From Leucobacter tenebrionis (GTDB taxonomy: Bacteria > Actinomycetota > Actinomycetes > Actinomycetales > Microbacteriaceae), in NCBI RefSeq assembly GCF_019884725.1, contig NZ_CP082322.1, positions 2,356,001 to 2,420,000 of the forward strand: a stretch of 64,000 nucleotides of DNA, in the 5' to 3' direction. A program made the position numbers and the translations under genes. Shown piece after piece: positions 3 to 55,133 of the stretch; positions within the stretch are counted from its first letter, which is position 1, and the number at the start of each line of letters is the position of its first letter. The notes under the pieces are model-generated. The model saw only the letters and a list, made by a program, of their open reading frames with translations. It made no database searches and was not told the DNA's origin.

Positions 3-836
3 TACCAGAACGTGTTCGCCTCGCACGACCAGATCGCGACGATGATCGCCGATCCGCGCGTGCAGGGCGTCTCGCTCACCGGCTCGGAGCGGGCTGGCGC
101 GATCATCGGGGCGCAGGCCGGCCAGCACCTGAAGAAGTGCGTGCTCGAGCTCGGTGGCATCGACCCGATGGTGGTGCTCGACAGCGACGACGTCGCGGCG
201 ACCGCGGCCGAGGCCTGGAACTTCCGCGTCTACAACGGCGGCCAGGTCTGCAACTCGAACAAGCGCCTCATCGTGATGGACGACATCTACGACGAGTTCG
301 TGGCCGAGCTCAAGAAGCTCGCTTCGGGCCTCACCCCGGGCGACCAGCTGAACCTCGCCGAGGGCGAGTTCGCCCCGCTCTCGACCCGCGCAGCCGCCGA
401 GACGGTGCACGCGCAGGTGCAGCGCGCCGTCGAGGAGGGCGCGACCCTTGAAGCCGGCGGTGTGCTCTCCGAGGGTCCGGCGGCCTACTACTCGCCGGCC
501 GTGCTGACCGGTGTGCCCCGCGACTCCGAGTCGTACCGCGAGGAGATCTTCGGCCCGGTCGCGACGGTGTACCGCGTGTCGAGCGACGAGGAGGCACTCG
601 AGCTCGCGAACGACTGCGCGCTCGGCCTCGGCGGCTCGGTGTTCTCGACCGATGAGGCCCGCGCGGCACGCGTCGCCTCGCGGCTCGAGGTCGGCATGTC
701 GCACGTCAACACCATCGCGGCCGAGGCGGCCGAGATCCCGTTCGGCGGCGTGAAGCGCTCGGGCTTCGGCCGAGAGATGGGCCCGCTCGGCATCGGCGAG
801 TTCGCGAACAAGCGCCTGTACTTCGTCGCGGCATAG
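3..836 (+). CDS. NAD(P)-dependent aldehyde dehydrogenase, probably succinate-semialdehyde type (5' end missing)
   Basis: The reading frame is already open at the window edge, so the N-terminal cofactor-binding part lies upstream; about 277 C-terminal codons are present. The catalytic-domain signatures are visible: the glutamate motif LELGG and, about 35 residues later, the nucleophilic cysteine in GGQVCNSNKR. The C-terminal PFGGVKRSGFGRE block is typical of aldehyde dehydrogenases. The sequence resembles succinate-semialdehyde dehydrogenases (GabD/Sad), which oxidise the aldehyde to succinate in GABA degradation, but the substrate cannot be fixed from this fragment. A 28-bp perfect hairpin follows the stop codon. 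Family is certain; substrate is inference. Confidence 0.9.
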   Translation, partial: YQNVFASHDQIATMIADPRVQGVSLTGSERAGAIIGAQAGQHLKKCVLELGGIDPMVVLDSDDVAATAAEAWNFRVYNGGQVCNSNKRLIVMDDIYDEFVAELKKLASGLTPGDQLNLAEGEFAPLSTRAAAETVHAQVQRAVEEGATLEAGGVLSEGPAAYYSPAVLTGVPRDSESYREEIFGPVATVYRVSSDEEALELANDCALGLGGSVFSTDEARAARVASRLEVGMSHVNTIAAEAAEIPFGGVKRSGFGREMGPLGIGEFANKRLYFVAA

Positions 837-4196: not shown

Positions 4197-4670
4197 ATGA
4201 TTGTTTTTGTGGTTGAAGATAACGCTCAGAATGCATCGAATCTTGATGCTCTTGCGCTTGAGCTGACCCGTATCAGCGGTCGGTTCTCCCGCATCGCGGG
4301 CCGCACCGCGGGCGTGGGCTACTCGCTCGTCGCCTGGCGCGTGCTCGCCGAACTCGAGCAGTCGGGTTCGGCGCGCGTGAGCGAACTCGCCCAGCAGCAG
4401 CGGGTCGCGCAGCCCTCCATGACCGGACTCGTGCAGCGCCTCGAGCACGAGGGCTGGGTCGACCGGCACCCCGATCCCGATGACGGCCGCGCCACCCGCG
4501 TGGGCATCACCGAGGCGGGCCGTGCGGCTCTCGACGAGTACCGCGGCATCGCCGCCGATCGCGTGCGGCCGCATCTCGGCGAACTCTCCGACTTCGACCG
4601 GGCGACGCTCGCGCGCGCGGTCGAGCTGCTGCAGCAGCTGAGCGAGCGGATCGAGGATCCGCGAGCCTGA
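4197..4670 (+). CDS. MarR-family transcriptional regulator
   Basis: 157 residues with a winged helix-turn-helix: VSELAQQQRVAQPSMTGLVQRLEHEGWVDR is recognition helix and turn, followed by the wing DPDDGRATRVGITEAG. The gene heads the MFS transporter gene on the same strand and probably controls it together with itself. The start is uncertain: the ATG at 4197 has no ribosome-binding site and nearly abuts the operator, which would suggest a leaderless message; a GTG at 4209 is the in-frame alternative. Confidence 0.88.
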   Translation: MIVFVVEDNAQNASNLDALALELTRISGRFSRIAGRTAGVGYSLVAWRVLAELEQSGSARVSELAQQQRVAQPSMTGLVQRLEHEGWVDRHPDPDDGRATRVGITEAGRAALDEYRGIAADRVRPHLGELSDFDRATLARAVELLQQLSERIEDPRA

Positions 4671-10824: not shown

Positions 10825-13395
10825 ATGTCACTGTTCACCCGCAGCACCGAGCTGAAGCGCTTCCGCGAGGGCACCCTGCCCAAGGTCGCGCTCGTGGTGC
10901 TCCTCGTCATCCCGCTCATCTACGGAGCGCTCTACCTGTGGGCGTTCTGGGCGCCCACCGACAACCTGAACAAACTGCCCGTGGCGATCGTCAACCTCGA
11001 CGAGCCGGCCGAGAAGCCGGACGGCGGCACGCTCGCCGCGGGCGACGACGTGATCGAGCAGCTCGAGGAGGGCAAGGATCTCGACTGGCAGCCCCTCGGC
11101 GCCGATGAAGCGGCGAAGGCCGTGGGCGACGGCGACGTCTACTTCTCGGTGACGATCCCGAGCGACTTCTCGAGCACGCTCGCCGGTCTGCAGGACGACC
11201 CCAAGGCCGGCGAGATCGAGGTCGTCTACAACGACAACAACTCGTTCCTGGCCTCGACGCTCGGCAAGCAGGCCATGGTGCAGCTGCGCGACGCGGTCGC
11301 GCAGACGGCCACGCAGACCGCTGCCGAGCAGGTCATGGTGGGCGTCGAGAAGCTGAGCGACGGCACCCGCAAGGCGGCCGAGGCGGCGGAGACCCTCGAC
11401 GGAGGCGCCTCGAAGGTCGCCGACGGCAGCACGAAGCTCAGCGCCGGCCTCGGCGAGCTCGCCGACGGGACCGCGCAGATGGTCGCGCAGGCTCCCGCGC
11501 TCATCGACGGCACGCAGCAGCTCGCGGCGGGTGCCGGCGCGGCGCACGACGGCAGCGGGCGCCTGGCCGCGGGGCTCGACGAGGCGCGCGGAAAGAGCGC
11601 CCAGCTCGCGGCCGGCGCTGACCAGGTGAGCGGCGGCGCGAGCGAGCTCGCCGGCAAGTCGGGCGAGCTCCGCGACGGACTCGGAGCGCTGAAGGACGGC
11701 ACCGAGCAGGTCGCCGGCGGTGCCGCCTCCGTCGCGCAGGGCAGCAAGAAGCTGGCGGGCGGCGTCGACGAGCTCGTCGAGCGGGCGAGCGCACTGCCCG
11801 CGGGCACGTCCGCCGCATCCCAGGGCGCCTCGCAGCTCGCGGCGGGCCTCGCCCAGCTGCAGGCCGAGGGCAGCGCTCCGCTCAGCTCCGGCGCGTCGAC
11901 GCTCGCCGCCGGGGCGACGAGCCTGAACGACGGCGTGGCCCAGCTCGCCGACGGTTCTGCCGCGCTGAGCCCGGCGCTCGCGCAGGTCGCGCAGCTCGCG
12001 GCGGCGAACCCCGAAATGACCCTCGCCCAGCTCGACGCGGCACTGCAGCAGCAGGGCTCCTCGCTGCAGGCGCTCGCGGGCGGTGCGGCGGCGCTGCAGG
12101 ACGGCGCTGCGGCCGCTCGAGACGGCGCCTCGCAGGTATCGCAGGGTGCGAACGACCTCTCCGCGGGCGCGGCGTCGCTCGACTCGCAACTGCAGAACGT
12201 CGCCGCGAAGAGCGGTGAGCTCTCGGTCGGAGTCGCCGAGCTCGATCAGGGCGCGGGCGCGCTCGTCGACGGTCTCGGCAAGCTGCAGGGCGCAGCGGGT
12301 GAGCTGAGCGCGGGTGCGACGCAGGTCGCCTCCGGATCCGGCACCCTCGCCGCCAAGAGCGGTGAGGCGCAGGCCGGCAGCGCCCAGCTGGCGGACGGCG
12401 CGTCGAAGCTCGCGGCCGGCACGGGCACGGTCGCCGAAGGGACGAACGCGCTCGCCTCCGGCGTCGGTACGGCCGCGGACGGCGCCGCGGTGCTCACCCA
12501 GGGCACCGGGGCGCTCGCCTCCGGGGCGGACCAGCTCGCGTCGGGCGCGGGGAAGCTCGCCGACGGCGCATCGAAGCTCGACGCCGGCGCCCAGCAGGCG
12601 AGCGAGAAATCGGGCGAGCTCGCGAAGGGCGCCGAGCAGGTGAGCGAGGGATCCGGAACCTTCGCCCAGCAGCTCGCCGAGGGCGCCGATGAGGCACCCG
12701 AATTCTCCGAGGGGCAGGGGGATCGCATCGCCGAGACCATGGCGGCCCCCGTGCAGCTCGCCGAGCACACCGAGAACGAGGTGCAGGGCTTCGGCGAGGG
12801 CTTCGCCCCGTTCTTCATCGCACTGGCCTCGTTCGTGGGGGCGCTCATCACCTGGCTGATCCTGCGCCCGCTGCCGCGTCGCCCCCTCGCCTCGAACGTC
12901 TCGGGGCTGCGATCGGTGCTCACCGGCTTCTGGCCCGCCGCGCTGATCGGCGTCGGGCAGGTGGCGATCATGATGGCCGTGCTGGTGTTCGGGATCGGCA
13001 TGCGGCCCGCGCACTGGATGGGCATGACGGCGTTCATGCTGCTCGTCACCCTCGCGTTCCTGGCGCTGCAGCAGATGTTCATCGCGCTGCTCGGTACGGC
13101 GACGGGGCGCGTGGTGAGCCTCGTGCTGCTCATGCTGATGCTGTCGTCGTCGGGCGGCACCTACCCGGTCGAGACGACGCCCGCCTTCTTCCAGGCGCTG
13201 CACCCCTTCATGCCGGCCTCGTACGTGGTCGAGGGGCTGCGTCAGCTGATCGGCGGCGGGATCGACGCCCGGTTCTGGGGGTCGCTGCTCGTGATGGCGG
13301 GCGTGCTCGTCGGGTCGCTCGCGATCAGCGCGATCGCCGCGCGCCGCCAGAAGGTGTGGACGATCAAGCGGCTGCACCCCGAGCTGGCGATCTAG
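10825..13395 (+). CDS. YhgE/Pip-family membrane protein
   Basis: 856 residues. One N-terminal membrane segment (about residues 19-43, PKVALVVLLVIPLIYGALYL) is followed by the YhgE N-terminal domain, then about 450 residues (roughly 180-640) of degenerate glycine/alanine repeats of the type LADGASKLAAG that should form an extended helical or coiled stalk, then about five C-terminal membrane segments (from ALASFVGALITWLI). Relatives include the Lactococcus phage infection protein Pip and Bacillus YhgE; some function as phage receptors, others in export. It follows the degenerate ATPase gene by 54 bases. Specific role here is unknown. Confidence 0.88.
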   Translation: MSLFTRSTELKRFREGTLPKVALVVLLVIPLIYGALYLWAFWAPTDNLNKLPVAIVNLDEPAEKPDGGTLAAGDDVIEQLEEGKDLDWQPLGADEAAKAVGDGDVYFSVTIPSDFSSTLAGLQDDPKAGEIEVVYNDNNSFLASTLGKQAMVQLRDAVAQTATQTAAEQVMVGVEKLSDGTRKAAEAAETLDGGASKVADGSTKLSAGLGELADGTAQMVAQAPALIDGTQQLAAGAGAAHDGSGRLAAGLDEARGKSAQLAAGADQVSGGASELAGKSGELRDGLGALKDGTEQVAGGAASVAQGSKKLAGGVDELVERASALPAGTSAASQGASQLAAGLAQLQAEGSAPLSSGASTLAAGATSLNDGVAQLADGSAALSPALAQVAQLAAANPEMTLAQLDAALQQQGSSLQALAGGAAALQDGAAAARDGASQVSQGANDLSAGAASLDSQLQNVAAKSGELSVGVAELDQGAGALVDGLGKLQGAAGELSAGATQVASGSGTLAAKSGEAQAGSAQLADGASKLAAGTGTVAEGTNALASGVGTAADGAAVLTQGTGALASGADQLASGAGKLADGASKLDAGAQQASEKSGELAKGAEQVSEGSGTFAQQLAEGADEAPEFSEGQGDRIAETMAAPVQLAEHTENEVQGFGEGFAPFFIALASFVGALITWLILRPLPRRPLASNVSGLRSVLTGFWPAALIGVGQVAIMMAVLVFGIGMRPAHWMGMTAFMLLVTLAFLALQQMFIALLGTATGRVVSLVLLMLMLSSSGGTYPVETTPAFFQALHPFMPASYVVEGLRQLIGGGIDARFWGSLLVMAGVLVGSLAISAIAARRQKVWTIKRLHPELAI

Positions 13396-13507
13396 GCGGC
13401 CGGCTGGCCGGGTCGGCCGGCCCGACCGGCTGGGTCGGCCGGCAATCCGCCCGATCCAGCCCGCCGCGCCATCCCAACCAGCCGCACCGGCCTCCGCACC
13501 CCGTGCA

Positions 13508-13571
13508 GCACCGATCTGCCCAGGAACACCTCGAAACCGCCGAATCGGTGTGCTTTTGGGCAGATCGGTGC
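13508..13571. repeat. Class I palindrome, copy A
   Basis: GCACCGATCTGCCCA (13508-13522) and TGGGCAGATCGGTGC (13557-13571) are perfect 15-bp arms; the 34-base centre contains further weak pairing. The ends GCACCGATC/GATCGGTGC, the length and stretches of the centre (AACACCTCGAAA, AATCGG-GTGCTT) match copies at 17883, 18918 and 55071. It lies between the YhgE gene and tetR, both on the + strand. Just upstream (13396-13452) is a GC-rich stretch with GGTCGGCCGGC twice, which may form the YhgE terminator. Confidence 0.85.
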
Positions 13572-13651
13572 AGTTAGGGCGGCGGGTTCACCTGAGGCGG
13601 CTGCGCGCACGAGTTGAGCCGGGAACAGCGCGAACGCGAGAGGATAGACCC

Positions 13652-14221
13652 ATGGCACGGGTGAACACGAAGCAGCTCATCACCGAGGCGGCGGTGCGCA
13701 TCGCGGCGCAGCACGGGATCAGCGGCGCCTCGATGGACCAGATCGCCGAGGCGGCCGGGGTCGCCAAGGGCAGTCTCTACTACAACTTCCCGTCCAAGGA
13801 CGCGATCTTCGAGCAGGTGATGCGCGACGGCTTCGAGCGTCTCGCCGCCGCCATCGACGAGGCGCGCGCCCGAGCCGAAGGCGATCCCGAGCTGCTGCCC
13901 CGCGCGGTCGCGGCCGCGACCCTCGAGACCCTGCGCGGCAACCTCGATCTCGCCAAGCTCATGGCGTCCGAGGTGTTCCGCACCGACCGGGCGTGGGCAG
14001 GGGCCATGGAGCTCGCCCGCTCCTCGGTGGTGGTGCGCTTCCGCGACGTGCTGCGCGAGGCGGAGGCCGCGAGGGGAGGATCGCGCTTGCCCGACGACAT
14101 CACCGAGATCGCGGGGGCGGCCTTCTTCGGGGCGCTCGCGGGGGCGTGCCTCGACTGGCTGCTCTTCCGCCGGGATCAGAGCGTGGACCAGGTGCTCGAT
14201 CAGGTGCTGCGCGCGTACTGA
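13652..14221 (+). CDS. TetR-family transcriptional regulator
   Basis: 189 residues starting at ATG 13652 behind GAGAGGA. The N-terminal helix-turn-helix is classical (LITEAAVRIAAQHG, MDQIAEAAGVAKGSLYYNFPSKDAIF); the C-terminal half is a ligand/dimer domain. It follows the YhgE cluster and probably regulates it through the palindrome at 9922-9935. The following 250 bases to the next gene contain no other feature that I can support. Confidence 0.9.
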   Translation: MARVNTKQLITEAAVRIAAQHGISGASMDQIAEAAGVAKGSLYYNFPSKDAIFEQVMRDGFERLAAAIDEARARAEGDPELLPRAVAAATLETLRGNLDLAKLMASEVFRTDRAWAGAMELARSSVVVRFRDVLREAEAARGGSRLPDDITEIAGAAFFGALAGACLDWLLFRRDQSVDQVLDQVLRAY

Positions 14222-14474
14222 CTTCGGTGCTCGGGATCGGGCCGCGCTGATCGTGCTCGCCTACGAGACGGGCCTCGTGCGCCCCGGACGCGCCGAGGGG
14301 TGAGCGCGGGCTGAGCGCCAGCCTCATCCCGACGGATTCCCCCGCGCGGCGGAGCGGCGATCCCGATCTCATTCCCGCGGCGGATCCGCCCCGCTGCCCG
14401 TCTCAATAGCCTGGAACGACGGGCGGAAGCCATGCCCGGCCCGCACGCACGACACCGGAACCAGGGAGCACGAG

Positions 14475-14957
14475 ATGATCGAACAACTGCAGGAATTCGC
14501 GGCCGGCTTCCCGGAGTGGGCTCAGTGGTTGGCGGTCGCGCTCGTCTCCATGATCCCGTTCGTGGAGTCGTACTTCGGATCGGTCATCGGCGTCGCGATC
14601 GGCCTCCACCCGGTCGTCGCCGTCGTGGCCGCCGTCGCAGGCAACGCCGTCTCCATGCTCATCTTCGTGCTGAGCGTGCACGCGACCCGACGGAAGGTGC
14701 GGGAGACGCGGGGCACCGCCGACCTCGAGGCGAGCCCGAAGCGCCAGCGGCTGAAGCGCATGTTCGACCGCTTCGGGGTGCCCGGAGTCTCGCTGCTCGG
14801 GCAGACGCTGCTGCCGAGCCAGATCACCTCGGCGGCGATGGTCGGCTTCGGGGCGTCGAAGAACGCCGTGATCGGGTGGCAGATCGTGTCGATCGTTCTC
14901 TGGGGAGCCCTCTTCGGGTGCCTCTCCTACTTCGGGATCGAGCTGCTGCTGCGCTGA
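14475..14957 (+). CDS. Small membrane protein of the small multidrug export family
   Basis: 160 residues with about four hydrophobic segments, opening with WLAVALVSMIPFVESYFGS; a charged cytoplasmic loop (RKVRETRGTADLEASPKR) splits the protein. The VESYFGS and GQTLLPSQITSA segments are typical of the family annotated as small multidrug export protein (Pfam Sm_multidrug_ex, related to the SNARE-associated/DedA-like group). Transport function is by family name only. It stands alone and is followed directly by a perfect palindrome. Confidence 0.75.
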   Translation: MIEQLQEFAAGFPEWAQWLAVALVSMIPFVESYFGSVIGVAIGLHPVVAVVAAVAGNAVSMLIFVLSVHATRRKVRETRGTADLEASPKRQRLKRMFDRFGVPGVSLLGQTLLPSQITSAAMVGFGASKNAVIGWQIVSIVLWGALFGCLSYFGIELLLR

Positions 14958-14968
14958 GGCGCGCAAGA

Positions 14969-15010
14969 CGAGGAGGCGGGCAGGATCGCGCGATCCTGCC
15001 CGCCTCCTCG
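14969..15010. terminator. 42-base perfect palindrome without loop
   Basis: Arms 14969-14989 and 14990-15010 are exact 21-bp reverse complements with no spacer (centre GATCGC/GCGATC). It follows the small membrane protein gene by 12 bases and can act as a terminator, although no T-run follows. The absence of any loop base makes it equally a candidate protein-binding or cruciform site. Confidence 0.6.
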
Positions 15011-15028
15011 CGTTCGCGCCGCCGCGCT

Positions 15029-15079
15029 CGGCCCCGGTCCTCCTGCGGCTCGCAAACTCGCGCAGGGGGACCGGGGCCG
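15029..15079 (-). terminator. Terminator of the aminotransferase gene
   Basis: CGGCCCCGGTCC-CCTGCG (from 15029) pairs with CGCAGG-GGACCGGGGCCG (to 15079) over about 18 bp with a bulge, 12 bases past the aminotransferase stop codon on the minus strand. Together with the palindrome at 14969-15010 it separates two convergent genes. Confidence 0.6.
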
Positions 15080-15090
15080 GAGGGGGCCCG

Positions 15091-16293
15091 CTACTCGCTC
15101 AGCAGCGCCTGGATGCGACGCACGCCCTCGACGAGCGCTTCATCGCCGAGCGCGTAGCTGAAGCGCAGGTAGCCGCTCGGGCCGAAGGCCTCGCCGGGCA
15201 CCGCGGCGACCTCGGCCTCGGAGAGGATCAGGTCGGCGAGCTCGAGCGACGTGGTCGGCGTGACTCCGCGGATCTCGCGCCCAAGCGCACCGGTCACGTC
15301 GACGTAGGCGTAGAACGCGCCCTCGGGGGTGGGGCAGTTGAAGCCGGGAACGCGGTTCAGCTCCTCGACGATGAGCTTGCGGCGGCGGTCGAACGCGAGA
15401 CGCATCTGCTCGATCGGCTCCTGGGGGCCGTTCAGGGCGGCGATGGCCGCGCGCTGCGCGATGTTGTTTACGTTCGAGCAGAGGTGCGACTGCAGGTTCG
15501 CTGCGCCCTTCATGATGTCGGCGGGGCCGACCATCCAGCCGAGGCGCCAGCCGGTCATCGCGTAGGTCTTGGCGACGCCGTTCACGAGGATCGCGCGATC
15601 CCGCAGAGCGGGCACGGCCTCGACGATCGAGACGGCGCGCACCCCGTCGTAGACGAGGTTCTGGTAGATCTCGTCGGCGACGACCCAGAGGCCGTTCGCC
15701 TCGGCCCACTCGCCGATCGCCCGCGTCTCCTCGGGGGAGTAGACGGCGCCCGTCGGGTTGGAGGGCGACACGAACAGCAGCACCTTGGTGCGCTCGGTGC
15801 GGGCGGCCTCGAGCTGCTCGACGGTCACCTTGTAGCCCTGATCGGCGCCGGCGAACACCTCGACGGGCACACCGTCGGCGAGCTGGATCGCCTCGGGGTA
15901 GGTGGTCCAGTACGGCGCGGGCACGAGTACCTCGTCGCCCGGATCGAGCAGCACCTGGAACGATTGGTAGACCGCCTGCTTGCCGCCGTTCGTGACGATG
16001 ACCTGGCCGGCGGGCACGTCCCAGCCCGAGTCGCGCGCGGTCTTCGCGGCGATCGCCTCGCGCAGCTCGGGCAGGCCCGTAGCAGCCGTGTAGCGGAAGT
16101 TCTTCGGGTCGTCGAGGGCGGCGCGCGCGGCGTCGACGATGTGCGACGGCGTGGCGAAATCAGGCTCGCCTGCGGCGTAGCTGATCACGGGCCGACCCTC
16201 GGCCTGCAGGGCCTTGGCCTTCGCGTCGACCTTGAGGGTCGCGGACTCGGCGATGGCGGCGATCTTCTTCGAGAGACGGGAGATGTTGGTCAC
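15091..16293 (-). CDS. Pyridoxal-phosphate aminotransferase, aspartate aminotransferase type
   Basis: 400 residues, the full length of class I aminotransferases of the aspartate / prephenate (type Ib) group. Visible hallmarks: the N-terminal [12 protein letters not shown] substrate loop, [39 protein letters not shown], and the pyridoxal-phosphate lysine in [16 protein letters not shown]. It would interconvert aspartate and oxaloacetate with 2-oxoglutarate. It diverges from the tRNA-Trp/secE-nusG region. Two copies of GGGTGATCCCAGGGGCG lie just upstream (about 16337-16377) and could be regulatory or incidental. Confidence 0.92.
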
Positions 16294-16517
16294 CCGTCCA
16301 GACTACCGGCTGCGGCACCCCACCGGTGTGTTTCTGGGGGTGATCCCAGGGGCGTTTCGGAGGGTGATCCCAGGGGCGGGGCGCGGGATCGCGGAGCCGG
16401 TGCGCGGGGAGCCGGTTCGACAAGCCGGGTCGGATCGCGTAGAGTGATCCACGGTGATTGACTTTCGCCATAATTTTTCATGCCCTCAGGGCGGAAGGTG
16501 AAGGTCGTGATCTCCAT

Positions 16518-16593
16518 AGGGCGGTGGCGCAATTGGTAGCGCAGCGGTCTCCAAAACCGCAGGTTGCAGGTTCGAGTCCTGTCCGCCCTGCCA
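16518..16593 (+). tRNA. tRNA-Trp (anticodon CCA), 3' CCA encoded
   Basis: The acceptor stem AGGGCGG (16518-16524) pairs with CCGCCCT (16583-16589), followed by discriminator G and an encoded CCA (16591-16593). The anticodon stem GCGGT/ACCGC holds the loop CT-CCA-AA with the anticodon at 16551-16553, and the T-arm contains GGTTCGAGTCC. Position directly before secE-nusG is the usual actinobacterial arrangement. Confidence 0.97.
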
Positions 16594-16596
16594 GAT

Positions 16597-16624
16597 CCCG
16601 ATCGGTGCTCGCGCACCGGCCGGG
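16597..16624 (+). promoter_or_regulatory. Short hairpin between tRNA-Trp and secE
   Basis: CCCGATCGGTGC and GCACCGGCCGGG form a 12-bp stem with two mismatches around TCGC. It starts four bases after the tRNA 3' end, so it may help separate tRNA processing from secE translation or attenuate the transcript. It shares GATCGGTGC with the class I palindromes, possibly by chance. Confidence 0.35.
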
Positions 16625-16638
16625 AGAGTTGAAAGGAC

Positions 16639-16917
16639 ATGCGAGTGAGCAGTGAAGTCGAGGAGAGCGGCGGCGGTCTGGTCGAGCGCGCCAAGGCCGA
16701 CCGCGCTGCGAAGCGCAACTGGTTCAGTCGGATCTTCCTGTTCATCCAGCAGGTGATCGGCGAGCTGAAGAAGGTCGTCACGCCGACCCGCAAGGAGCTC
16801 GTCAACTTCACCCTCGTGGTGATCGCGTTCGTGCTGATCATGATGGCCCTCGTGTGGGTGCTCGACCAGGCGTTCGGCTGGGTGACCGTCTTCATCTTCG
16901 GCACGCCGCTCGCCTGA
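16639..16917 (+). CDS. secE: Preprotein translocase subunit SecE
   Basis: 92 residues with a charged N-terminal tail, the conserved amphipathic helix FIQQVIGELKKVVTPTRKEL, and one C-terminal membrane helix (FTLVVIAFVLIMMALVWVL). This is the single-membrane-span SecE of actinobacteria that clamps SecY in the Sec translocon. ATG 16639 has AAAGGA just upstream. It lies between tRNA-Trp and nusG, the conserved order. Confidence 0.96.
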   Translation: MRVSSEVEESGGGLVERAKADRAAKRNWFSRIFLFIQQVIGELKKVVTPTRKELVNFTLVVIAFVLIMMALVWVLDQAFGWVTVFIFGTPLA

Positions 16918-16964
16918 CGGGCGAGCGTCCGATCCCGAATCCCGAGCAAGGAAAGCAAGAACAG

Positions 16965-17765
16965 ATGACGAGCGAGAACAACAACCCCGAGGCCGAGCTC
17001 GACGCGGCGCTCGATGCGCTGGTGCAGTCGACCGACCCGGTCGCCGACGCCGCGGTGGAGGATGCGCTCGACATCGACAGCGCCGAGGAGGCGGCCGCGG
17101 CCGCCAGCGCGATCGTCGACGAGGAGGTCGAGGAGGAGACCGAGGCCGCCGAGGATCCCTACAAGGCCTTCAAGAAGGATCTGCGCCGTCGCCCGGGCAA
17201 GTGGTTCGTGATCCACACCTACGCCGGATACGAGCGCAAGGTGAAGTCGAACCTCTGGAACCGCCGCGAGACCATGGGCGCCGTGGATGACATCTACGAG
17301 ATCCAGGTCCCCATGGAAGAAGTCATGGAGGTCAAGAACGGCCAGCGCAAGATGGTGACGCGCGTGCGCATCCCCGGCTACGTGCTCGTTCGTATGAACC
17401 TCAACGAGACCACCTGGTCCGTCGTGCGCCACACCCCCGGTGTGACAGGCTTCGTGGGCAACGCCCACAACCCGGTGCCGCTGCGTCTCAACGAGGCGTT
17501 CGAGATGCTCAAGAGCACCGTCGAGTTCGAGCCGGCCGCCGCTGCCAAGGGCAAGGCCGCCGCCAACGCCGCCGCTCAGGGCAACGTCGAGATCGACTTC
17601 GAGATCGGCGAGACCATCACCATCAAGTCGGGCTCCTTCGAGGGCCTGCCGGGCACGATCAGCGAGATCAACCCCGCCGCGGGCAAGCTCACGGTGCTCG
17701 TCTCGCTCTTCGAGCGCGAGACCCCGGTCGAGCTCAGCTTCGACCAGGTCACCAAGATGGTCTGA
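16965..17765 (+). CDS. nusG: Transcription termination/antitermination factor NusG
   Basis: 266 residues from ATG 16965, preceded by AAGGAAAG. An acidic N-terminal extension of about 75 residues, typical of actinobacterial NusG, precedes the NGN domain (KWFVIHTYAGYERKVKSNL to VPMEEVMEV, GYVLVRM, VRHTPGVTGFVG) and the C-terminal KOW domain (IKSGSFEGLPGTISEI). It binds RNA polymerase and Rho or ribosomal S10. It follows secE by 47 bases. Confidence 0.96.
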   Translation: MTSENNNPEAELDAALDALVQSTDPVADAAVEDALDIDSAEEAAAAASAIVDEEVEEETEAAEDPYKAFKKDLRRRPGKWFVIHTYAGYERKVKSNLWNRRETMGAVDDIYEIQVPMEEVMEVKNGQRKMVTRVRIPGYVLVRMNLNETTWSVVRHTPGVTGFVGNAHNPVPLRLNEAFEMLKSTVEFEPAAAAKGKAAANAAAQGNVEIDFEIGETITIKSGSFEGLPGTISEINPAAGKLTVLVSLFERETPVELSFDQVTKMV

Positions 17766-17776
17766 TCCTCTCTCTT

Positions 17777-17815
17777 CGAACGCCCCGCCTTCTCTCCCGA
17801 AGCGCGGGGCGTTCG
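17777..17815 (+). terminator. Terminator of secE-nusG
   Basis: CGAACGCCCCGC (17777-17788) and GCGGGGCGTTCG (17804-17815) form a perfect 12-bp stem, 11 bases after the nusG stop. This is an ordinary-size intrinsic-type hairpin and contrasts with the longer palindromes elsewhere in the window. Confidence 0.75.
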
Positions 17816-17882
17816 CGCGTTCGGGTGCCGTCTTGCTTTACGCCTGCTTGTTCGCCCTCCGGCCTTTCTCCTTTCCGCTCAC

Positions 17883-17945
17883 GCACCGATCGATGTTCGA
17901 ACACCTCATTTCGCTGTGGTTGAGGTGTTCGAGCGTTGATCGGTG
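17883..17945. repeat. Class I palindrome, copy B (3' flank of the DUF559 gene)
   Basis: The arms 17883-17908 and 17921-17945 pair over about 25 bp. Within the paired region the departures from perfect complementarity are G-T pairs, which would be G-U wobbles in an RNA read from the + strand. It ends 17 bases before the DUF559 stop codon (17963). Its left arm matches the reversed copy at 18918-18980, so the two are in inverted orientation around the gene. Confidence 0.85.
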
Positions 17946-17962
17946 TATCTAGACGAAGGCGG

Positions 17963-18787
17963 CTATCGCGCCAGGTGTAGGCCGCGCGCGATGGCTTCGA
18001 GGATCATCGTTTCGACCTCGTGCCAGCGGTATACGATCTGCTCGTAACCGACGCGAATCACGTGGTACCCGCGCAGTCTCAACTCTGCATCGTGCTCGTT
18101 GTCACTCGTTCGCTGTCGGCCCACGTGATCCCGGCCGTCGATCTGAATCACGAGGCGGTCACCGATGAGGAAGTCGACGCGGTGCCCGTGCAGCCAGGAC
18201 TGCGCGCGCACCGGGACTCGCAACCACCTCAGACGGCTGCGAAAAAGCGACTCCAGGCCGGAGTCGGCGAACGGCGTGCACTCGAGCAGGATCTTGCGGG
18301 CTCGGGGGCTCAGCGGAAGCGTGGCCAGCTTCGGGTAGTCGGTCAACTGCCGCTGCAGTGCGGAGTCCCATACTGCGAGCGATTCGTCGTGCGGCCGGCA
18401 TCGAGCCACGCAGTCCAGGACGTTCTCGAGGTGGTCGGTCAATAACTCGGGGCTCCGCGGGACCAGAGGGGTGTGCCAATGTACTCGGGATCTTCCCGGC
18501 AGATCGACATGGCGGCCGCGTGGTGCGGCCACGTGCCATTCCTCGCGTTTCAGCACCCAGAGCCCCAGCCGGGCCGCCTGGGTGATGCAACTGAGCACGA
18601 CCCCGTGTCGGGCGGCGAGAACGAGTTCGGGATCCGCCGACGCGAGCGCGAGCCATCCCCTGCGCGGCCGGGATGCCGTTCCGTTTGCGATGCTTCTCCT
18701 GATCTGGTGCTGCGAGTGGCCGAGGCGCAGAAGGCGGGAGGTGCGCGCAATCCCGCCTTCGGTCTGCAGAGACTGTTCGATGGACAT
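17963..18787 (-). CDS. DUF559 / Vsr-like endonuclease-domain protein
   Basis: 274 residues from ATG 18787 (no good ribosome-binding site). The N-terminal 90 residues contain a putative winged helix resembling AbiEi-type antitoxin N-domains (GIARTSRLLRLGHSQHQIRR). The C-terminal 110 residues are the DUF559 domain, with a PD-(D/E)XK-like core: ESLFRSRL, VDFLIGDRLVIQIDG, then DAELRLRGYHVIRVGYEQI. Such proteins are common in actinobacteria and untested. It interrupts the nusG-rplK neighbourhood on the opposite strand and is flanked by class I palindromes. Confidence 0.85.
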   Translation of the reverse strand: MSIEQSLQTEGGIARTSRLLRLGHSQHQIRRSIANGTASRPRRGWLALASADPELVLAARHGVVLSCITQAARLGLWVLKREEWHVAAPRGRHVDLPGRSRVHWHTPLVPRSPELLTDHLENVLDCVARCRPHDESLAVWDSALQRQLTDYPKLATLPLSPRARKILLECTPFADSGLESLFRSRLRWLRVPVRAQSWLHGHRVDFLIGDRLVIQIDGRDHVGRQRTSDNEHDAELRLRGYHVIRVGYEQIVYRWHEVETMILEAIARGLHLAR

Positions 18788-18917
18788 GCATTGAGTGTGC
18801 AGCGGTCCCTTGCGCGGCTGCGCCCGAAAAGCCTGAATGTGGATAACTTGCCGCGATATGGCACTTTCTACGAGCTGTGGGCGAAGTGTTCTGCGGGGGC
18901 TCGACACCCTTCCAGCG

Positions 18918-18980
18918 GCACCGATCGACCTCTGGGCACCCCCTCTTCGGAGTTCTAGGTGGTTGAACGTCGATCGGTGC
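18918..18980. repeat. Class I palindrome, copy C (5' flank of the DUF559 gene)
   Basis: Terminal arms GCACCGATCGAC (18918-18929) and GTCGATCGGTGC (18969-18980) are perfect; the inner part pairs less well. Read on the minus strand it begins GCACCGATCGACGTTCAACC, close to the start of copy B, so copies B and C are inverted relative to each other. It lies 131 bases upstream of the DUF559 start and about 245 upstream of rplK. The rest of the 439-base gap (18788-19226) holds the rplK promoter region and GC-rich sequence with no gene. Confidence 0.8.
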
Positions 18981-19098
18981 TGCTGGGATGGGGCGGGGGC
19001 GGCGGGACTGGGCGGTGGCGGCGGTGGCGCGGTGTGGCGGCGAGGCGGCGGCAGGGCGGGGCGACACAGGGACGGGTGCGGAATGGGCGCGGATCGGG

Positions 19099-19104
19099 TA
19101 GACT
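19099..19104 (+). promoter_or_regulatory. Probable -10 box of the rplK-rplA promoter
   Basis: TAGACT followed by TGCC lies 122 bases upstream of the rplK start, leaving a leader of roughly 110 bases, as expected for this operon where L1 can autoregulate. No convincing -35 box is visible at the right spacing. Confidence 0.45.
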
Positions 19105-19226
19105 TGCCTGGTTTGCGTCTTCGCGCGCCCTGTGCGCGATCCTCGCAGACACGCACCGCATCCCGGACCGGCCGGGACGGCGGGAGAGCGCGCGCAACCG
19201 CGCGGGCTCGAAGAAAGGAAACAATC

Positions 19227-19658
19227 ATGGCAAAGGCCAAGAAGGTTACCGGTCTGATCAAGCTTCAGATCGCAGCCGGCGCAGCCAACCCGGCGCCCCC
19301 CGTGGGCCCCGCGCTGGGTCAGCACGGCGTCAACATCATGGAGTTCTGCAAGGCCTACAACGCGGCCACGGAATCCCAGCGCGGCAACATCGTGCCCGTC
19401 GAGATCACGGTCTACGAGGATCGCTCGTTCACCTTCGTGCTCAAGACCCCTCCGGCGGCTGAGCTGCTGAAGAAGGCCGCAGGCGTGCAGAAGGGCTCCG
19501 GCACTCCGCACACCGTCAAGGTCGCGAAGGTCACCGCCGAGCAGGTTCGCCAGATCGCCGAGCAGAAGCAGGCCGATCTCAACGCGAACGACCTCGACGC
19601 AGCATCGAAGATCATCGCCGGCACCGCCCGTTCCATGGGCATCACGGTCGAAGGCTAA
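19227..19658 (+). CDS. rplK: 50S ribosomal protein L11
   Basis: 143 residues from ATG 19227 behind GAAAGGA. The L11 signature is complete: the N-terminal proline-rich hinge ([24 protein letters not shown]), the RNA-binding C-terminal domain ([19 protein letters not shown]) and the terminal [13 protein letters not shown]11 forms the GTPase-associated centre of the large subunit. It is followed by rplA after 12 bases. Confidence 0.98.
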
Positions 19659-19670
19659 GGGGTAGGACAC

Positions 19671-20360
19671 ATGGCACAGAAGTCGAAGGCGTACCGCGCC
19701 GCTGCCGAGAAGATCCAGGCAGGCAAGTTCTACACTCCCGCTGAGGCCGTCGCCCTGGCGAAGGAGACCGGTTCCACCAAGACCGACTCGACCGTCGAGG
19801 TCGCCGTCAAGCTCGGTGTGGATCCCCGCAAGGCCGACCAGATGGTGCGCGGCACCGTCAACCTCCCCCACGGCACCGGTAAGACCGCGCGCGTCATCGT
19901 GTTCGCGGTCGGCGCTGCCGCCGAGGCCGCCATCGCCGCAGGTGCCGACGAGGTCGGCGGCGACGAGCTGATCGAGAAGGTGGCCGCAGGCTACACCGAC
20001 TTCGATTCGGCTGTCGCGACCCCCGAGCTCATGGGCAAGGTCGGCCGTCTGGGTAAGGTGCTCGGCCCCCGCGGCCTCATGCCGAACCCCAAGACCGGCA
20101 CCGTCACCCCCAACACGGCGAAGGCCGTCGAGGACATCAAGGGCGGCAAGATCGAGTTCCGCGTCGACAAGCACGCCAACGTGCACTTCATCGTCGGCAA
20201 GGCCTCGTTCTCGGCCGAGCAGCTCACCGACAACATCAACTCGGTGCTCGACGAGATCTCGCGTCTCAAGCCGTCGTCGGCCAAGGGCAAGTACGTGCAG
20301 AAGGGCGCCGTTTCGACGACCTTCGGCCCGGGCATCCCGCTCGACGTCTCCGGCCTGTAA
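19671..20360 (+). CDS. rplA: 50S ribosomal protein L1
   Basis: 229 residues, full length. Conserved L1 blocks include [20 protein letters not shown], the [15 protein letters not shown] signature and [13 protein letters not shown] near the C-terminus. L1 binds 23S rRNA at the E-site stalk and in many bacteria represses its own operon. Start ATG 19671 follows AAGGGGTAGG. A strong terminator follows. Confidence 0.98.
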
Positions 20361-20385
20361 GCGATCCGGCCGAGGCCGGTAGAAC

Positions 20386-20436
20386 AGCACGAACGGCCCT
20401 CCCCCGACACCTGTCGGCGGGAGGGCCGTTCGTGCT
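20386..20436 (+). terminator. Terminator of rplK-rplA
   Basis: AGCACGAACGGCCCTCCC (20386-20403) pairs perfectly with its reverse complement at 20419-20436, with an inner CCGAC/GTCGG stem, followed by TTTAG. It starts 26 bases after the rplA stop. Confidence 0.9.
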
Positions 20437-20487
20437 TTAGCATTGGGGATATGTTCCCGCGGGCCGCCTCCTCCGTCGCGATCGGCG

Positions 20488-21723
20488 ATGCCTGAGGCGG
20501 CAGCGGCGAAACCCCCGCTCATCTCGGGTTTCAACTATGTTCGCCCGCTGGGATCCGGCGGGTTCGCCCAGGTCTACCAGTACGAGCAGGACATGCCGCG
20601 GCGCGTGGTCGCGGTGAAGGTGCTGACGGGGAGCGCGGCGCTTGCGGCATCCGTCGAGGACCGGCTGGCGTTCGACGCGGAAGCCGACGCGATGGCGCGT
20701 CTGTCGAGCCACCCGTCGATCGTCTCGATCTTCGCGGCGAGCATCTCCAGCGACGGGCGGCCCTACATCGCCATGGAGTTCTGCCCCGAATCGTTCCGCC
20801 ACCGCGACGGCGGTCGCCCGATCCCGCTCGACCAGGTCATCGACGCCGGGGTGCGCCTGGCCGGTGCGCTCGAGACCGCGCACCGGGCCGGCATTCTGCA
20901 CCGTGACATCAAGCCGTCGAACGTGCTGCTGGCCACGACCGGGCGACCGGTGCTCGCGGATTTCGGGATCGTGTCCCTGCGCGGGCAGATGCGTGGCGCG
21001 GGCACGAGCGAGGCGATGTCGATCCCGTGGGCCGCCCCCGAGGTGATCGATCGGTCGACCGCCGGCACGGTGGCGAGCGAGGTGTGGTCGCTCGCGGCGA
21101 CGCTCTACACGTTCGCGGCGGGCCGCTCGCCGTTCGCGCGGGATGACGGCGTGAAGGACTCGCGCAAGTCGATGAGCGATCGGATCATGCGGGCGAGATA
21201 CCGGCCCGTGCCCGGTGCGCAGGGCTACGAGGCGTTCGACGGCGTGATGGCGGCCGCGCTCTCGAAGCGCCCGGAGCAGCGGTTCGCGACGATGCAGCAG
21301 TTCGGCGAGGCGCTGCAGCAGTTGCAGCGCCTGTACGGCTACGACGTGACGCCGCTCGATGTGGTGCGCTCGGAGTGGGTGCCGCCGGTCGCCTCGTCTC
21401 CGGCGGAGCACAGCCCGCTTGAGCATGGCTCGGTGGCGCCTGGCTCGGCGCCGCACAGCCCGACAGCGCATGGAGTAGCCCAGAGCCCCACAGCCCACAG
21501 CCCGGCAGCCCATGCGCCGGTGGTGCGCGGCCCCGTGGTGTCGCGCGTGCAGGCCGACGGCCGGGCGAGCAGGCGCGCCGAGATGGAGCGCGAGCGCGCG
21601 GTCTCCGACGGGCGCGGCTCGGGCGGGGGAGGAGTGCTGCGGCCGGCGCTCATCGGGGCGGCGTCGGCCGCGGGTGTGCTGCTGCTGGCGGCCGCGCTGT
21701 TCAGTGTGCTTGGCGGTAGGTGA
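20488..21723 (+). CDS. Membrane-anchored serine/threonine protein kinase
   Basis: 411 residues from ATG 20488; TTG 20443 is an alternative that abuts the terminator. Kinase motifs are intact: GSGGFAQVY glycine loop (22-30), lysine K44 in VAVKV, catalytic D140 in LHRDIKPSN, and D158 in DFG. After the kinase domain comes a linker rich in His, Pro, Ser and Ala (about residues 300-345) and one C-terminal membrane segment ([19 protein letters not shown]) with almost nothing outside, so there are no PASTA sensor domains. The next gene overlaps its stop codon (TGATG) and encodes a large exported protein that may be the sensor partner. Confidence 0.92.
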
Positions 21724-55070: not shown

Positions 55071-55133
55071 GCACCGATCGACGTTCGAGCATCGAAGATC
55101 CCGCAATCGGGGTGCTTGAGCGTTGATCGGTGC
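55071..55133. repeat. Class I palindrome, copy D
   Basis: GCACCGATCGACGTTCGAGC at the left end (55071-55090) pairs with GCTTGAGCGTTGATCGGTGC at the right (55114-55133); mismatches in the stem are all of the G-T type. Orientation is the same as copy B. It lies between the polypyrimidine tract and purK, in a divergent gap, so it is not placed as a terminator. The remaining 130 bases to purK show nothing clear. Confidence 0.85.

Follow-up and report, generated by a model that had tools for sequence, protein, structure and literature searches.

The window analysed here is a stretch of 64,000 nucleotides from the genome of Leucobacter tenebrionis (contig NZ_CP082322.1, positions 2,356,001 to 2,420,000), and our subject is a DUF559 gene within it, the sole gene of the gap between nusG and rplK, together with the family of palindromes that frames this gene. 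It lies on the reverse strand beside genes whose products Pfam names as NusG, L11 and L1, and its own product matches PF04480 (DUF559) with an E value of 2.7e-7. One palindrome stands 16 bases from the stop codon and another 130 bases from the start codon, and further members of the same family, all 63-64 nt long, occur alone (Table 1). A sequence-only reading of the window had described palindromes on both sides of the gene and solo copies at 13508 and 55071, and all four are present.

Table 1. Palindromes and framed gene in the window (R1, covariance model of the palindrome family; ORF, open reading frame)
Feature	Position	Strand	Basis
Solo palindrome, same family	13508..13571		pattern and R1
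Palindrome downstream of the DUF559 stop codon	17883..17946		pattern and R1
AbiEi-DUF559 nuclease-type gene (274 aa, ATG start)	17963..18787	-	ORF, PF04480 and predicted fold
Palindrome upstream of the DUF559 start codon	18918..18980		pattern and R1
Solo palindrome, same family; flanks match a three-copy cluster in sister genome G025	55071..55133		pattern and R1

Structure prediction divides the protein into an AbiEi-like DNA-binding part (residues 1-171) and a putative nuclease domain of the Vsr/EDxHD type (residues 176-270). In the predicted model the first part takes an AbiEi-type fold and the second an EDxHD/Vsr fold, with the acidic and histidine positions conserved. Pfam searches of the neighbouring genes, made for the window locus, found no AbiEii (DUF1814) toxin gene beside it. 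The complete genome, a single contig of 3.38 Mb, holds five DUF559 matches of several types and no match to the Y1 (HUH) transposase profile PF01797, which matches 5 of 14 control genomes. No RAYT, the Y1 transposase tied to repetitive extragenic palindromes (REPs), was found in this genome.

The palindrome is dispersed through the genome. Matches to CACCGATC-N(40..56)-GATCGGTG number 21, and the reversed control has none; all 21 exact copies start with GCACCGATC and 20/21 end with GATCGGTGC, and the 8-nt ends are invariant because the search pattern required them. R1, built from these 21 exact-pattern places, gives 74 matches in the same genome, corresponding to 37 places; every one of them reaches E 2.2e-4 or better on both strands. 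The two arms pair in 94.1% of cells, compared to 83.4% after shuffling, and reach a covariation score of 0.310 against 0.130, with 0/500 shuffles as high in either case. Excess over shuffles is clear on three of five measures (percentage paired, cells changed on both sides and covariation score), 1/500 shuffles is as high on a fourth, and the count of pairs in which both sides change shows no excess (8 versus 6.9 shuffled; 138/500 shuffles as high). When the 72 R1 places in this genome and G025 were classified with a crude ORF caller, 28 fell between tandem genes, 22 between convergent genes, 11 between divergent genes and 11 inside ORFs. The left flanks of these places are rich in C and the right flanks rich in G, with a skew of -0.44/+0.43 beside the element that fades symmetrically over about 60 nt.

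To ask how general the framing is, we matched the upstream flank of each gene against every locus's downstream flank, without preselecting palindromes, and recorded rank 1 when, of all downstream flanks, the gene's own resembled its upstream flank most. A protein search at E 1e-20 or better found DUF559 in 44 of 54 Leucobacter genomes. The Leucobacter set came to 64 loci after filtering from 71; a set from named records (mostly Leucobacter, Microbacterium and Agromyces), made of the best 80 of 188 relatives retrieved via one peptide pattern, fell to 77 and then 65; and a class-wide draw of 197 genomes, 21 of them with a DUF559 match, gave 30 loci, or 28 without the two own ones. Left out of these sets were L153 (a duplicate of L105), loci lacking a flank, proteins more than 85% identical, and the partial matches G020:C20 and G030:C67.

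A gene's own flank ranked first in 30/64 Leucobacter loci, 39/65 named loci and 20/28 class-wide loci, including 10/14 of those outside the own family, compared to 3/60 and 2/60 with windows shifted by 1800 bp and 1/58 with outer windows, the class-wide set being without a shifted control of its own. DUF559 genes of this family are flanked by matched repeats far more often than control windows, so that the reading passes the first of the two refutation tests set with it. The Leucobacter and named tests are not independent, since their records overlap (L189 and L123, for example, have the same flanks). At least the 99th percentile of between-locus scores was reached in 29/64, 36/65 and 15/28 loci, and matched segments scoring 26 or more were palindromic at z>3 in 22/26, 37/41 and 6/7 cases inside the own family. 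Many arms also contain an internal direct repeat, found in 20/26 and 26/41 matched segments at a score that about 5% of shuffled segments reach, with an offset of 18 or 19 in 13 of the 20 and 23 of the 26. Two side observations may be added. L393 (G103), outside the own family, has a matched repeat of about 200 nt on both sides of its DUF559 gene, possibly a different kind of framing; and L213 and L214, from records titled Planococcus sp. APC 4015 (JASDDH01), carry genes 54% identical to the window protein, although other matches are actinobacterial, so the records are possibly mislabelled.

These comparisons bear on the explanation that the palindromes are ordinary transcription terminators beside the gene by chance, which we consider extremely improbable. 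They are hairpins in intergenic gaps and 22 of the 72 classified places lie between convergent genes, as terminators would, but other places lie between divergent genes, sequence is shared within loci and not between them, and the link to one gene family is class-wide. Moreover, the palindromes give no Rfam match above a family cut-off, and over 13000-20500 only a tRNA does. The between-locus tests disfavour the terminator reading.

Framing by this family is not exclusive to DUF559, because an LtrA-family gene in the own genome also lies between two window-family palindromes (L031:1551-2977, genome positions about 2894750-2896176). Elsewhere in the genome, two near-identical direct palindromes, skirts included, lie 3.2 kb apart (L033:1139-1225 and 4370-4456, genome positions 1487138 and 1490369) with a GDPD-family gene and a small ORF between them. 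The description of the framing copies as inverted, or oppositely oriented, is not confirmed: the window pair is too nearly symmetric to favour one orientation, with a head-to-tail score of 23.0 and a head-to-head score of 21.5. Of the well-preserved pairs (score of at least 40), 11/12 are direct in Leucobacter, and the named set has 21/28 direct, 5 inverted and 2 ties.

The sequence-only reading had counted the insertion point between nusG and rplK in its favour, but the position is not supported as a sign of recent insertion. A DUF559 gene occupies the same place in 11 of 54 Leucobacter genomes (two with the rplK side alone seen) and in two Microbacterium records, with 57-64% identity to the window protein, or 83% in G025. 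Since the position is shared across species at such identities, the gene looks old and inherited in place. Of 30 rplK loci, 12 have nusG without DUF559, with gaps of about 190-670 bp (reversed-locus gaps derived by hand). The second refutation test, that relatives would have the gene here without palindromes, is passed as well, for all five relatives compared carry them. In L095 and L091 R1 recognises a palindrome on either side (E 1e-6 or better in the former, 3e-7 and 0.006 in the latter); in L099 one flank is clear and the other weak (E 2e-4 and 0.19); L083 has a match on a single side (E 0.002), as does L101, where the contig breaks off within the gene. Short R1 matches immediately past rplA (L084, L086, L087) and the weak matches of L089 and L096 were left out of the family.

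Such inheritance matters for the idea that the framed gene is itself mobile, in the manner of a homing endonuclease or a cassette, in which case the direct palindromes would serve as attachment-type sites and the solo copies would be scars. The mostly direct orientation of well-preserved pairs would suit it, as would the predicted nuclease fold, which is that of the homing endonuclease I-Bth0305I; but the gene keeps its position across species while its protein drifts to 57-64% identity, and the genome has 37 palindrome places for five DUF559 matches of several types. We regard this idea as improbable.

The palindromes appear to be private to the genomes that hold the matching gene. We sought 14 palindrome types, six from the sampled genomes and eight from genomes outside the sample, in 400-kb samples of G009, G027 and G016 and in the window. 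Five of the six sampled-genome types recur at home (5 matches in G027, 4 and 0 in G016, 2 and 1 in G009, and 3 in the window, namely the framing pair and one solo copy), and no type had a match in any sampled genome other than its own across the three samples and the window. The DUF559 locus lies outside each of the three 400-kb samples. Likewise, a Microbacterium type occurs at four places in its own genome, two of them the framing pair, and at none in nine other genomes. R1 itself is present in at least 10 of 60 genomes, the own included, with 37 places at home, 35 in G025 and fewer in eight others; these survey counts are lower bounds, with stricter filters and at most 74 candidates scored per genome. 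The DUF559 protein of G025 is the one 83% identical to the window protein at the same nusG-rplK position.

Protein and palindrome also vary together. Across 50 loci with a well-defined pair, protein identity correlates with palindrome similarity (Mantel r 0.446, p 0.001), and type sharing drops from 60% of pairs at 70-85% identity (15 pairs) to 11% at 60-70% (94 pairs) and 0.5% at 55-60% (190 pairs). The signal resides in residues 1-171 (partial r 0.42, p 0.001), to which residues 176-274 add nothing (partial r -0.01, p 0.6); the best 30-residue stretch, 76-105, has a partial r of 0.372 given the rest, which retains 0.218. That palindrome similarity follows residues 1-171 points to DNA recognition by the AbiEi-like part, a correlation in which relatedness is only partly controlled. 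We are confident that the DUF559 gene and its palindrome form a specific, co-evolving pair.

The palindromes could instead be an operator family: the protein would control its own gene by binding inverted repeats, and the solo copies would be further regulated sites or decoys, spread passively. This is the chief rival because known AbiEi proteins autoregulate in this way: PMC7319586 describes autoregulation through inverted repeats for AbiEi and Rv2827c. The DNA-binding half here has a predicted AbiEi fold, and the distance from the upstream repeat to the gene start has a median of 107 bases in the named set (quartiles 91 and 127; 38 loci). Against this, a matched copy follows the stop codon as well, the 72 classified places are spread over tandem, convergent and divergent gaps and ORF interiors, 21 of the 37 places are not shared with G025, copies duplicate locally together with their skirts, and the nuclease domain is left unexplained. 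We judge the operator family unlikely, if less so than any other rival.

Comparison with relatives shows how the palindromes turn over. Comparison with 36 G025 places links 16 of the 37 own ones through one flank or both and leaves 21 with no shared flank, and G025 has similar direct copies 148-288 bp apart. No clean insertion edges are visible in gap alignments between G025 and the own genome (G000), which are too diverged to show them. Four G016 places were set beside the close relative G022, and at two of these both genomes have the palindrome. At a third, G016 has a copy about 970 bp from a near-identical one, and it is missing in G022; the G016 copies have 2 core differences between them, whereas about 8 separate the first from its G022 counterpart (read by eye), which favours recent gain in G016. 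The fourth place follows the DUF559 gene, which in the G022 assembly is split over two frames. In G025, the DUF559 gene is separated from a damaged upstream palindrome by a Transposase_mut (Mutator-family) ORF (L153:3806-5101), as if an insertion sequence (IS) had landed in the palindrome.

The dispersal, the class-wide matched framing, the genome-specific copies in the samples, the co-variation with the AbiEi-like part and the predicted fold can be joined in one scheme, whose binding, cutting, hairpin substrate and repeat spread we infer. The AbiEi-like part would bind copies of a motif within the palindrome, which in many types stands twice per arm, 18-19 nt apart, and so about four times per element. 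The Vsr/EDxHD-type domain would nick or cut the element, probably while this is an extruded or single-stranded hairpin, and the cut element would be copied in trans to new, mostly intergenic places. The DUF559 gene would stay at inherited places such as nusG-rplK, and protein and palindromes would drift together in each lineage, giving rise to lineage-specific families. That the two make up a REP/RAYT-like repeat system with an unrelated enzyme is, on balance, our preferred reading, and it seems rather probable that the nuclease is what spreads the repeats.

Several results weigh against this scheme. The internal motif repeat is weak in the window family itself. No rank-1 partner was found for 34/64 Leucobacter, 26/65 named and 8/28 class-wide genes; some class-wide rank-1 matches score low (16.5, 21); and outside the own family only 3/7 matched segments scoring 26 or more are clearly palindromic (z>3). 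One G016 type has no solo copy in its sample. Edges are not sharp, and the duplicated units include skirts. CCCGAGC repeats flank the gain in G016, so loss in G022 is also possible, and the fourth G016 place looks like a loss in G022 that left CTCACCGAA. Finally, G029 has at least four R1 places (one in L059; best E 1.5e-15), while its closest DUF559 relative is only 50% identical.

Copies without a close cognate gene, as in G029, would suit another spreader, such as an IS transposase or replication slippage, with the nuclease merely recognising the palindromes, for example to cut or resolve hairpins. So would the direct copies in G025, which look like local duplication, and the Transposase_mut ORF beside the damaged palindrome. 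Such a spreader would not explain, however, why the sampled types are confined to genomes with a matching gene, nor why palindrome similarity tracks the AbiEi-like part, and we think it doubtful, more so than the operator family.

Taken furthest, the reading of a nuclease that spreads its own repeats would describe a separate class of hairpin repeats across Actinomycetes, spread by AbiEi-EDxHD nucleases: the AbiEi-like part (chiefly about residues 76-105) would read a motif held about four times, the nuclease would nick the hairpin, and protein and repeat would re-target together in each lineage, leaving each genome with a private repeat code. To this full proposal we give an even chance. A REP/RAYT-type partnership in an unrelated protein family would imply more than one origin of enzyme-repeat pairs. 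It also offers a testable role for the uncharacterised DUF559 family, and dozens of natural protein-motif pairs from which AbiEi-type DNA recognition could be decoded. In the open-licence papers searched we found no description linking DUF559 or AbiEi proteins to dispersed palindromes.

Dispersed palindromes are common, and several known systems invite comparison. Integron attC sites, too, are imperfect palindromes in which structure is better conserved than sequence, a likeness to the elements described here, but the stems here are near-symmetric with conserved outer ends; the flank of L013 does no more than resemble the R-box consensus. As for MITEs, which carry target-site duplications and share their ends with an IS, the CCCGAGC repeats around one G016 insert would be a candidate duplication. 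Unlike I-Bth0305I and Vsr, the gene here is free-standing between the host genes nusG and rplK and tied to a dispersed palindrome family. It differs from AbiE type IV toxin-antitoxin systems in that its neighbours in the window are NusG and ribosomal proteins and no toxin, and from the AbiEi antitoxin in that the AbiEi-like part is fused to a nuclease-type domain and matching repeats are dispersed genome-wide. The closest likeness is to REP/REPIN systems, for which PMC3116915 describes RAYT genes framed by their own repeats, type-specific pairing and a gene kept in place: here, too, the palindromes are dispersed and mostly extragenic, the enzyme gene is framed by its own repeats, pairing is type-specific and the gene is not multiplied. 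For CGTC REPs no dedicated transposase is known, according to PMC3733652. In contrast to the REPs described there, which are 20-40 bp long with GTAG or CGTC tags, the palindromes here are 63-64 nt with GCACCGATC ends, and their well-preserved pairs are mostly direct. Moreover, where a RAYT is a Y1 HUH transposase, the enzyme here would combine an AbiEi-like part with a Vsr/EDxHD-type domain.
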